Shown here in pieces: positions 26,179 through 29,111 of a stretch of DNA of 64,000 nt. Positions within the stretch are counted from its first letter, which is position 1; each line of letters begins with the position of its first letter. The translations under genes and the position numbers were made by a program. The DNA comes from Chlorobiota bacterium (GTDB lineage: Bacteria; Bacteroidota; Ignavibacteria; Tepidaquicellales; OLB5). Below the pieces are notes generated by a model, which made no database searches, was not told the DNA's origin, and saw only the letters and a list, made by a program, of their open reading frames with translations. Location of the stretch: the NCBI GenBank assembly GCA_022616535.1, contig JAKEEM010000045.1:1-64000 (forward strand), in the 5' to 3' direction.

Positions 26179-27153
26179 ATGGAAACTGGCATATTAACTG
26201 AACCTCAAACTAACTTTACACTGAATTTAGAAGCGCTGAATTTAGAAGAGGAAATCCTTGCGTTAAAGAAAAAGCTTAATGCAGTAATCCTTGCGCATTA
26301 TTACCAGGAATCCGAAATACAGGATTTGGCTGATTTTATCGGCGACTCTCTTGAGCTTTCCAAACGCGCCGCTTCAACCGATGCCGATATAATTGTTTTT
26401 GCAGGCGTTCATTTTATGGCTGAGACGGCTAAGATTTTAAATCCTTCCAAAAAAGTTTTAATACCTGATTTAAACGCGGGCTGCTCGCTTGCCGAAGGAT
26501 GTCCAGCGCCGGTGTTTAAAAAATTTAAAGAACTGCACCCGGACCATATTGTAATAAGCTATATAAACTGCTCAGCCGCTGTAAAGGCGTTAAGTAATAT
26601 TATCTGCACTTCGTCAAATGCGGTAAAGATTATTGAGCAGATTCCCAAAGAGCAGAAAATAATTTTTGCGCCTGATAAAAATCTCGGGCGGTATATAATG
26701 AAAAAAACCGGGCGTAGCATGCTGCTTTGGGACGGAAGCTGCATAGTGCATGAAACATTCAGCGACAGAAAGATTTTGCTATTGAAGGCGGAAAATCCAA
26801 ATGCTCTTTTAATTGCACACCCCGAATGCGAGGAAGCAATTTTAAACAGGGCTGATTTTATCGGCTCAACAAGCGCTTTGCTGAGGTTTACATATGAGTC
26901 GGATGCTAATGAGTTCATTATTGCAACCGAAGAAGGCATAATCCACCAGATGCTGAAGAAATCCCCGCATAAGAAATTCATTCCTGCCCCTCCGAATTCG
27001 AGCTGTGCGTGCAATGAGTGTCCTTATATGAAATTAAACACAATGGAGAAGCTTTACCTCTGCATGAAGGACCAAAAGCCGGAGATTATTCTTGACGAGG
27101 AAATTAGAATAAAAGCCCTGAAGCCAATCCAAAGAATGCTTGAGATGAGCTAA
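26179..27153 (+). CDS. nadA: Quinolinate synthase
   Basis: 324 residues. [44 protein letters not shown] and [14 protein letters not shown] give the first ligand Cys. [13 protein letters not shown] follows. A later Cys is in [10 protein letters not shown] and the last is in the [12 protein letters not shown] region. The enzyme condenses iminoaspartate with dihydroxyacetone phosphate to quinolinate using a [4Fe-4S] cluster, in NAD synthesis. nadB and nadC are not in the window. Transcription probably comes from the moeB side. Confidence 0.95.
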
Positions 27154-27157
27154 TACG

Positions 27158-27303
27158 GTTGCAGGTTGCAAGTTGCAGATTACAAATTAACGATATTTCT
27201 GAAATTTCCAAGCGTTGAATTTTGAAACATTTTCTGCTGCCTGATAGCTCAAACCAGAAATTCACGATATTTCTGAGAATCCCAACCGATGAATTTTGAG
27301 ACA
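27158..27303. repeat. Degenerate tandem and 40-bp direct repeats after nadA
   Basis: A run of imperfect gttgcag units (27158-27182) is followed by two 40-bp direct repeats, 27190-27229 and 27264-27303. Both begin acgatatttctga and end with a tgaattttgaRaca sequence. No open reading frame runs through them. They mark the left end of the gene-free tract. Confidence 0.75.
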
Positions 27304-27304
27304 A

Positions 27305-27417
27305 AATTGTCTGAACCATGATTAACCTGCCTGCAGCAGGCAGGTTGGATTTAGGGATTACCTTGATGGAAGCAAAAAATCATAGTAATCAATTAATCAG
27401 GTGAATCAAGCCTGCCC
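27305..27417. repeat. Interspersed repeat with perfect 23-bp palindrome
   Basis: The element runs from the tgtctgaaccatgatt segment to tcaggtgaatcaag. It contains aacctgcctgc-a-gcaggcaggtt (27324-27346), two 11-bp arms around one base. This kind of 'ctgaacc...gattaccttgat...gaatcaag' filler is one I recognise as recurring between genes in related genomes; that recognition is from memory and not checked here. Confidence 0.65.
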
Positions 27418-27445
27418 CCCTGCTGGCGGGGTTCAAAATTTTGTT

Positions 27446-27513
27446 CGACCCCAATGGGGTCGTTTTTTTTATTGTCCTTTTTCTATAAATATTCGACACC
27501 TACGGTGTCGTTT
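27446..27513. terminator. Two short hairpins with T runs
   Basis: cgacccc-aat-ggggtcg (27446-27462) is followed by eight Ts. cgacacc-tac-ggtgtcg (27494-27510) is followed by four Ts. Both have the terminator form for rightward transcription and could end the moeB-nadA transcript ~300 bp after nadA. Their near-identical cgac...gtcg design suggests members of a palindromic repeat family rather than a dedicated terminator. Confidence 0.55.
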
Positions 27514-27593
27514 TACTATTTACTTTTTACTATTTGTTATTTGATTTTTGTTATTTATTTGTCATTTGTAATTTGAAATTTGACATTGCTTTT

Positions 27594-27613
27594 AAAAAAA
27601 TACCACCATGGTG
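27594..27613 (-). terminator. Terminator of the candidate RNA
   Basis: Read on the reverse strand, the palindrome ccaccatggtgg is followed by tattttttt. The loop is tight (catg), so the stem is only four to five pairs, but the T tract is strong and sits exactly at the end of the GC-rich interval. Confidence 0.55.
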
Positions 27614-28108
27614 GATTTGAATTTCCGCCCGGAGACGGTTTTGAAAGTGGGTTTGTGACTCCTGCCTATGGCAGATCGTAGACCTGCCGCCTGCCTTGTG
27701 GGCTTACCTTGTGAGTTGGCAGCAAGTATATGACTGCTTTGACTCAACAGTACAAGCTTGAAAGCAAGCTCCCGATGTAAAATCGGGACAGGCCCCGACG
27801 TGAAGTCGGGACAGGCCGGCAGAAACACCGACACCGGTTCTTCCAAAAAGTCCTTGTTACGTATACAAGGGTGAAGCATCCGCCTGAGGCGGACAGTCTT
27901 ATACCATAGAGTCGTCGCTTAAGGAGCCCAGCTTTCTGCATAACCGGATAGCCCAATGAAATGCGGGTACTCCCTAAACCAAGCTTAGCCAGTTGACCAG
28001 GCGGGAATATTGGCTTGTGGCTTCAACTCCCCGGTGCCTGCAAAAGACTCTGATGATTTTGAGTCTTCCCTCCCCCGACAGCCCCGTTTGAGCCCGTAGA
28101 GAAACCAA
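27594..28108 (-). ncRNA. Candidate structured non-coding RNA, ~515 nt, unassigned class
   Basis: Three independent signs mark a reverse-strand RNA gene: a full-match promoter (28115-28145), a terminator-like hairpin plus seven Ts (27594-27613), and a visibly GC-richer interval between AT-rich flanks with no credible ORF. Stable local stems include aagactc/gagtctt (28044-28050 with 28061-28067), tccgcc/ggcgga (27879-27893), ccttgt/acaagg (27852-27870), two tandem hairpins cccgac/gtcggg (27794-27810) and cccgat/atcggg (27771-27787) that differ by base-pair-preserving changes, and agcttg/caagct (27755-27770). I looked for RNase P (GAGGAAAGTCC), tmRNA (tRNA-like ends, tag) and SRP (GGTCAGGTCCGG) signatures and found none. 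6S-like or an undescribed class remains possible. Confidence 0.6.
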
Positions 28109-28114
28109 GCGTTG

Positions 28115-28145
28115 CAAATTTACTACATAAAAATAGCGAATGCAA
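28115..28145 (-). promoter_or_regulatory. Promoter of the candidate RNA
   Basis: On the reverse strand TTG (28145-28143), exactly 20 bases, then TAAATTTG (28122-28115): a full match to the Bacteroidota promoter. The predicted start is around 28108, where the GC-rich interval begins. Confidence 0.7.
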
Positions 28146-28155
28146 GAGTAATCAC

Positions 28156-28495
28156 TGCATTAGGCATATATGGAACGAAAGTTGATAAGTTCATTAAATT
28201 CATTAAGTTACTATAGAAAAAGCAAAAAAATGAAAAAGCAAAAAATAAAACGCAATCAACAAAAATCCGAAAATTATTTTGATTGCGGAAAGGAAACGAT
28301 AAAAAAGTGTTAAGACCATGATATAGCTTAAAAAATTAAAATTTTACCACTTTACAAAATTTACGGACAAGTATCTCACCTGCCTGCAGCAGGCAGGCGG
28401 GTTTAAGACCACTTTTGAATACATATTGCACTGATTACGCAGATAAATTTTGCAATTACAGAATTTATAAACTTTCGATGCATTAGGCACATATG
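28156..28495. repeat. Direct repeats and a palindrome in the AT-rich spacer
   Basis: tgcattaggcatatatg (28156-28172) recurs as tgcattaggcacatatg (28479-28495), 16 of 17 identical, in the same orientation and followed in both cases by a short related stretch ending gttgat. Between them lie an inverted repeat cgcaatcaa/ttgattgcg (28251-28259 with 28279-28287) and the palindrome cctgcctgc-a-gcaggcagg (28379-28397). No gene is visible. Confidence 0.65.
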
Positions 28496-28607
28496 AGGTG
28501 AACTGAGTTGATTCTCAAAACTTTATTATAGATATTATTTTGAATTTATTGGCACTAAATAATTTAGAAAACGTTAAAAGTCAAAAAATATAAGAAATAC
28601 ATAAAAC

Positions 28608-28638
28608 TTGACAAAACACTTATTATTTTATATCTTTG
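28608..28638 (+). promoter_or_regulatory. Promoter for the small-protein/protease unit
   Basis: TTG within TTGACA (28608-28610), exactly 20 bases, then TATCTTTG (28631-28638). This is a full match. The predicted start near 28644 leaves a ~250-base AT-rich leader before the ATG at 28896, in which I see no ORF or recognised riboswitch. Confidence 0.7.
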
Positions 28639-28895
28639 CAGGTACTTTGAATCGGACATTAGTCTTTTTTTTCATCTTTCTAGAATCTTTCAAATAAATA
28701 AATCTATTTATTAAGATAGATTTAATAAAAAAATAATAATTATTATGAAGGATCTAAGAGGAATTTACTTCTATTTTTCACCTTATCTTTCATAATTTCA
28801 CTATAATTAATTGTTATGCTGTTATTAATATCTTATGATTATTATGATTTTAACGTACGACAAGTGTTTACGATAAATAATTAAAAAAAATATTT

Positions 28896-29111
28896 ATGGA
28901 AAAAGAAATAAAAATATCAGAAATTGAAGAGAAAATTGAAAATGCGATAAAAATTGCAAGAGCAAATGAAAATATTAATGAAATCTTCGAAACAATTAAA
29001 CCCCTTTGGATCCTGGTTGAAAGTAAAGATTTAACGAACTTAATTTATAATGATTCTAATTCAGGTAATATGGATAAGTATTTATCTTCGTTTAGCGGAT
29101 TACAGTTATAA
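28896..29111 (+). CDS. Small acidic helical protein, unknown
   Basis: 71 residues, not recognised. The first half is a highly charged amphipathic helix (MEKEIKISEIEEKIENAIKI), followed by a Leu/Trp-containing helix (FETIKPLWILVESKDLTNLI) and a polar tail ending SFSGLQL. There is no signal peptide or membrane segment. It stops 2 bases before the ATG of the protease gene and shares the upstream promoter, so it is probably co-translated with it. The unit is clearly more AT-rich than the neighbouring genes, which fits acquisition by transfer. Confidence 0.55.
   Translation: MEKEIKISEIEEKIENAIKIARANENINEIFETIKPLWILVESKDLTNLIYNDSNSGNMDKYLSSFSGLQL

Follow-up and report, generated by a model that had tools for sequence, protein, structure and literature searches.

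The window, by which we mean the whole 64,000-nt stretch of DNA that was analyzed, contains a gene-free tract of 1.74 kb (27154 to 28895), as an initial annotation had claimed, flanked by a nadA-like ORF that ends at 27153 (the gene name is read from sequence only) and a small ORF that starts at 28896. Within this tract, the minus strand from 28145 to 27594 comprises a promoter, a GC-richer block, and a hairpin/T-run terminator. The promoter described in the initial annotation proved to be exact, with TTG at 28145 to 28143, N20, and TAAATTTG at 28122 to 28115, and the terminator was recovered at 27614 to 27594 as CCACCATGGTGG followed by a T run. The GC-richer reverse-strand block was likewise confirmed, at ~515 nt, and it folds stably, in an RNA-like manner: the minus-strand fold (527 nt) reaches −198.1 kcal/mol, compared with −168.6 kcal/mol (SD, 5.9) for dinucleotide shuffles (z = −4.96), and the plus strand gives z = −3.08 in the same comparison. 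The features of this copy are listed here; the other copies mentioned lie elsewhere in the same genome and are described below.

28476 to 28498, minus strand: distal second operator-like palindrome (IR1), partly conserved; a divergent TTGACA lies opposite in some other copies
28301 to 28316, minus strand: upstream box GTCTTAACACTTTTT, conserved in most copies
28152 to 28175, minus strand: operator-like palindrome, degenerate in the window copy; consensus TTCACCTCATATATGCCTAATGAGGTGAA
28115 to 28145, minus strand: promoter TTG-N20-TAAATTTG; spacing identical in every readable copy
27594 to 28110, minus strand: predicted RNA of ~515 nt, with the promoter and terminator used to infer where it starts and ends, respectively
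27983 to 28110, minus strand: 5' domain closed by P1 (GCUUGG, 28110 to 28105, with CUAAGC, 27988 to 27983); subtype A, found elsewhere only in the C41 copy
27919 to 27977, minus strand: P7/P8 hairpin (UUAGGGAG with CUCCUUAA); double changes at 5 of 8 pairs
27899 to 27913, minus strand: 5' strand of the long-range helix P9 (GACUC-U-AUGGUAUAA), adjoining conserved GCGACGAC
27894 to 27898, minus strand: 5' strand of the pseudoknot helix P10, GACUG; 100% paired, C-G replaced by U-A in C72
27880 to 27892, minus strand: P11, optional palindromic hairpin CCGCCTCAGGCGG; missing from several copies
27852 to 27870, minus strand: P12 hairpin CCUUGU-AUACGUA-ACAAGG; double changes at 4 of 6 pairs
27771 to 27810, minus strand: tandem hairpin pair, an insert only in the window copy
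27741 to 27755, minus strand: 3' strand of P9 (UUGUACUGU-U-GAGUC)
27732 to 27736, minus strand: 3' strand of the P10 pseudoknot, CAGUC
27687 to 27722, minus strand: P15 (CUGCC/GGCGG) with conserved loop AACUCACAAGGUAAGCCCACAAGG
27639 to 27661, minus strand: conserved stretch GAGUCACAAACCCACUUUCAAAA, apparently unpaired
27625 to 27638, minus strand: P16 hairpin, CCGUC-UCCG-GGCGG in the window copy; some copies have a UUCG loop, and in still other copies the hairpin is swapped or absent
27594 to 27614, minus strand: P17 terminator hairpin CCACCAUGGUGG plus U run

Dispersed paralogues in the host genome

The initial annotation took the locus to be an orphan, which holds for the databases searched but not for the genome: the host assembly (2.89 Mb, 77 contigs) contains at least 16 dispersed copies, most of them at contig ends, with 16 distinct upstream and 15 distinct downstream flanks. 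Blastn against this assembly returned matches on nine other contigs, and covariance models of the middle module (R1) and the 3' module (R2) gave 14 and 15 good matches, respectively; a 16th R2 match (C10) was weak and, once its sequence had been read, was dismissed as false. A search with the upstream region added further 5' ends, mostly at contig ends. The 16 upstream flanks are those of C70 (the window), C41, C24, C72, C21, C62, C47, C29, C20, C67, C66, C17, C30, C55, C33, and C13. The RNA of the C48 copy is complete and that copy begins inside the promoter; it may belong to one of the upstream flanks just listed. Because the assembly breaks within the conserved part, the exact number of loci is uncertain. 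The repeated unit as a whole has no clear-cut boundaries.

The RNAs range from 370 to 520 nt in length and fall into two subtypes, A (C70 and C41) and B (all others whose 5' domain is readable); the core is common to both, and the 5' domain sets them apart. The readable copies retain the promoter and terminator, and no shared neighbor gene was evident among the nearest ORFs, which were read without a domain search. Two tandem hairpins at 27771 to 27810 (CCCGACTTCACGTCGGG and CCCGATTTTACATCGGG) had drawn attention in the initial annotation for differing by changes that keep every pair. The pair-keeping change is real, but the insert that carries it was seen in no other copy and is missing even from the closest paralogue, the C41 copy.

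Some copies are shortened or decayed. The C24-end copy (L050) is without the terminator region, and C51 (L027) retains only the last ~80 nt at the 3' end. The C72 copy (L029:1505-1885) is a short version of ~370 nt, from which P8 and other parts are gone; it keeps the pseudoknot via a compensatory change and is possibly a natural minimal form.

A further reading is that the conserved unit encodes small peptides rather than a functional RNA. Short open frames do exist (in subtype B, for example, one beginning ATGAGCCGTTCCGCC), but they shift or stop between copies, and no ORF is held in frame throughout the copies compared. We give this reading almost no credence.

A fixed promoter and an operator-like palindrome

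The promoter TTG-N20-TAnnTTTG is present in every copy with both boxes readable; the sequences of C62 and C55 stop short of the −7 box, and C33 shows the spacing when its second TTG is taken as the start. Upstream of it lies a palindrome, CCTCATNNNTGCCTAATGAGG, whose gap to the TTG is either 9 bp or 19 to 20 bp, distances one helical turn apart (the gap reads 9 for C24, C72, and C67 in the upstream-flank alignment). In the window copy the palindrome is degenerate. Allowing up to three mismatches, the operator motif has 31 matches genome-wide, compared with 2 for a reversed control pattern, and most of the motif matches are accounted for by these RNA genes and a second repeat family. Because the palindrome sits at a fixed helical phase, a regulator shared by the copies is likely; the helical-phase argument is indirect, and regulation itself is inferred.

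Among subtype B copies, pairwise identity climbs from 39% in the outer flank and 57 to 62% upstream to 93% over the palindrome and 98% where the RNA starts. This gradient would fit purifying selection, gene conversion, or both, which have not been separated.

The second repeat family is also dispersed and noncoding, with members in C19, C42, C45, C47, C72, C64, C11, and C52 (L082:1560-1960 and L083 to L090). They carry the same palindrome or a variant of it, with TTGACA 19 to 20 bp downstream wherever this distance was measured (four copies); next come, in several copies, GGGCGACCCGGCGGGTCGC and AACTTTACATAATATCGGATTTGAGACACGG. These repeats could represent another family of co-regulated RNAs or, alternatively, a mobile unit. 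Some copies of the RNA locus have a second palindrome ~200 to 300 bp upstream, reversed and accompanied by a divergent TTGACA-like site (window 28476 to 28498, L029:1220-1240, L068, and L073), an arrangement that suggests a putative divergent transcript.

A covarying core with an apparent pseudoknot

RNAalifold returned almost nothing from the MAFFT alignment of the middle module, and the helices were therefore named by hand and then counted. In the covariation set, a MAFFT alignment of ten copies with a named structure of 42 pairs, 91.8% of cells are paired. Changes on both sides of a pair occur at 15 of the 42 pairs, compared with 8.0 (SD, 1.7) in shuffles, none of 500 of which reached 15, while slid registers gave only 1 to 4 such pairs. 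Covariation beyond both shuffled and slid controls is what we required of a structured RNA, and it was obtained, so that the covariation test proposed in the initial annotation had a favorable outcome. The structure was chosen after looking at the same sequences. All copies come from one genome, so that the ten rows behind the covariation are paralogues, and the conservation may be shaped by gene conversion among them.

Whole helices have been replaced between copies: P7 occurs as UCAGGGAG/CUUCCUGA, UUAGGGAG/CUCCUUAA, and CUUAAGAG/CUCUUAAG, and P12 as CUCACG/CGUGAG, CCUUGU/ACAAGG, and CCUCUG/CAGGGG. The sequence of the P7/P8 helix is swapped with its pairing intact in the C28 copy and nearly intact in a C9 copy. 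P9 pairs AAAGUAUAA with UUAUGCUUU; GACUG follows directly after, and its partner CAGUC lies downstream of the second P9 strand, giving the apparent topology of an H-type pseudoknot. P10 is 100% paired, with one double change (GAUUG/CAAUC in C72), and in the P9 extension (GACUC/GAGUC) the innermost two pairs form in only 2 to 3 of the 10 rows. In many copies, P14 is a hairpin with a GCAA loop closed by G-C, G-U, or A-U, and P16 has a UUCG loop with C-G or U-A as the outer pair; because the strands were hand-selected, the counts for P14, P16, and further helices are illustrative. Relative to shuffles, the RNA strand folded better than the antisense strand in six further copies, two of them (C28 and C9s) only weakly.

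Other palindromes are found at P8, P11, P13, P15, and P16 in other copies. A 19-nt palindrome, CCTGCCTGCTGCAGGCAGG, is dispersed genome-wide, with window instances at 28379 to 28397 and 27326 to 27344, and palindromes related to it lie inside peripheral loops of several RNA copies.

That such palindromes are dispersed in and around the copies, and that expression data are lacking, would suit a reading of the locus as an untranscribed graveyard of intergenic palindromes. However, covariation, exact promoter geometry, and an RNA start conserved at 98% are unexpected for neutral debris, and we regard this reading as highly improbable.

Database and genome searches

Rfam 15 gave no match at gathering for the locus or the window, and nothing credible at the locus when all families were run with permissive filters at an E value of ≤10; nine paralogue loci matched no family. 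RNase P RNA (RF00010) had no covariance-model match at the locus; tmRNA, SRP RNA, 6S RNA, ROOL, GOLLD, and OLE had none at the locus or in the other copies tested, and neither did the core of a group I intron or domain V of a group II intron. The Rfam check proposed in the initial annotation thus ended without a family, and its statement that signatures of RNase P, tmRNA, and SRP are absent was upheld to an E value of ≤10. A canonical RNase P RNA occurs once in the genome, at a different place (C54:8691-9060, 194 bits), and for this reason the locus is not a diverged RNase P.

Similar size and complexity are what would speak for a known large RNA in strongly diverged form (RNase P, tmRNA, SRP, 6S, ROOL, GOLLD, OLE, or a group I or II intron), the other possibility raised in the initial annotation. 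This reading is already largely refuted by the lack of any Rfam match, under permissive filters, in the window and other copies and by the RNase P RNA found once, elsewhere; in addition, housekeeping RNAs would not be expected to occur as 16 copies whose domains diverge. We leave it only a very slight chance.

The search for homologues that had been suggested yielded paralogues in the RNA's own genome and none that were convincing in the relatives searched. Blastn in 58 relatives found no convincing homologue, and the R1 covariance model found nothing in 43 genomes of the same order or, with stricter filters, in 395 of the same phylum; R1 and R2 with laxer filters found nothing in 38 relatives. 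Across ~85,000 species genomes, exact motif 1 had no matches and exact motif 2 had six, none fitting the RNA models convincingly (best E value, 0.065). Among viral contigs, three exact motifs had no match and a fourth had one with a poor model fit (E value, 0.24), and blastn against phages and plasmids returned none. The scans of species genomes, viral contigs, phages, and plasmids possibly do not include the source genome or its near kin, and relatives that have diverged can escape an exact motif. No matching RNA was found in the literature.

Discussion

We are confident that these loci form a real family of structured RNA genes, and it is very probable that the window locus is a genuine gene specifying a large, folded noncoding RNA, with its expression being inferred. 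The suggestion in the initial annotation of a new class of large bacterial RNA is supported by covariation among the paralogues, the kept promoter and terminator, the absence of a conserved ORF, and the lack of an Rfam match. With no relative in the genomes searched, it looks like a new, lineage-specific RNA family, as yet unnamed, that has multiplied within a single lineage of bacteria. With less assurance, we favor the view that the family consists of at least 16 co-activated genes whose products act in trans, as RNA or RNP; here transcription, the regulator, and trans action are all inferred.

In the mechanism we propose, a dimeric transcription factor would bind the palindrome and switch the copies on together. 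The RNAs would then act in trans, either in an RNA-protein particle or by pairing via the conserved single-stranded segments AACUCACAAGGUAAGCCCACAAGG and GAGUCACAAUCCCACUUUCAAA. Having many loci would provide a high dose and a fast response, and the peripheral loops would be free to take up palindromic repeats.

The main rival is that the unit is a noncoding repeat that is selfish or mobile. It would be a non-autonomous element composed of promoter, structured RNA, and terminator and lacking a host function; its spread would depend on a transposase or reverse transcriptase in trans, and its RNA could be the transposition intermediate. The presence of at least 16 dispersed intergenic copies that are absent from all relatives searched, a palindrome common to the second repeat family, and truncated or decayed copies (C51, with its 3' end only, and the C24-end copy without a terminator) all agree with this. 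Yet the unit is accompanied by no protein gene and shows no evident terminal repeats, and the RNA and operator are conserved while the rest is highly divergent, which points to selection or conversion and not to recent jumps. We consider such a repeat somewhat unlikely. Returning to a family of co-activated RNA genes, we can put forward a broader version only tentatively: that a new class of large pseudoknotted RNA, expanded within one lineage to at least 16 co-regulated genes and having an operator in common with the second repeat family, makes up an RNA regulon or RNP system that spans the genome, is possibly a family of selfish RNA genes, and has no known counterpart.

There are few bacterial RNAs that are both large and complex and whose function is unknown. 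At least 16 diverging copies in one genome amount to a natural mutational experiment, in which the covarying core and the free loops are already defined, and the common operator offers a handle on the timing of RNA production. The family is apparently absent elsewhere, which prompts one to ask how a structured RNA of this size comes into being within a single lineage and spreads there.

Comparison with known RNA families and repeats

At the level of sequence, the copies have the features of a paralogous sRNA family, namely their own promoter and terminator and a common palindrome, with transcription and regulation inferred; several homologous RNA genes per genome, as in families of the FopS or LhrC kind, are also present. 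FopS of Bacteroides thetaiotaomicron comprises 14 paralogous, mostly intergenic sRNAs in one genome, with Bacteroidota-type promoters and a possible further regulator; these are base-pairing sRNAs with a seed and are conserved across Bacteroidaceae (PMC11697453). The RNAs described here resemble them in paralogue count, promoter type, and mostly intergenic location but differ in their length of 370 to 520 nt, their pseudoknotted core, and the lack of relatives found. LhrC and other sibling sRNAs are multicopy and under a common regulator, an organization thought to give redundancy and dose (PMC4132741, PMC4211561). The likeness lies in multicopy RNAs under a common regulator, inferred in our case; the sibling sRNAs have fewer copies than the at least 16 found here. 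They are also much smaller and simpler than these RNAs.

ROOL, GOLLD, and OLE are several hundred nucleotides long and have a complex conserved fold, no conserved ORF, and a function that is unknown or partly known (PMC12286853). They are similar in size and complexity to the RNAs described here, which have no Rfam match to any of them. To our knowledge, none of the three occurs as a 16-copy dispersed family with a common operator. Finally, noncoding repeats of the REP/MITE type likewise have dispersed intergenic copies, but in each readable copy of the present family a full promoter precedes a covarying RNA and, provided that the 3' end is intact, a terminator follows it.
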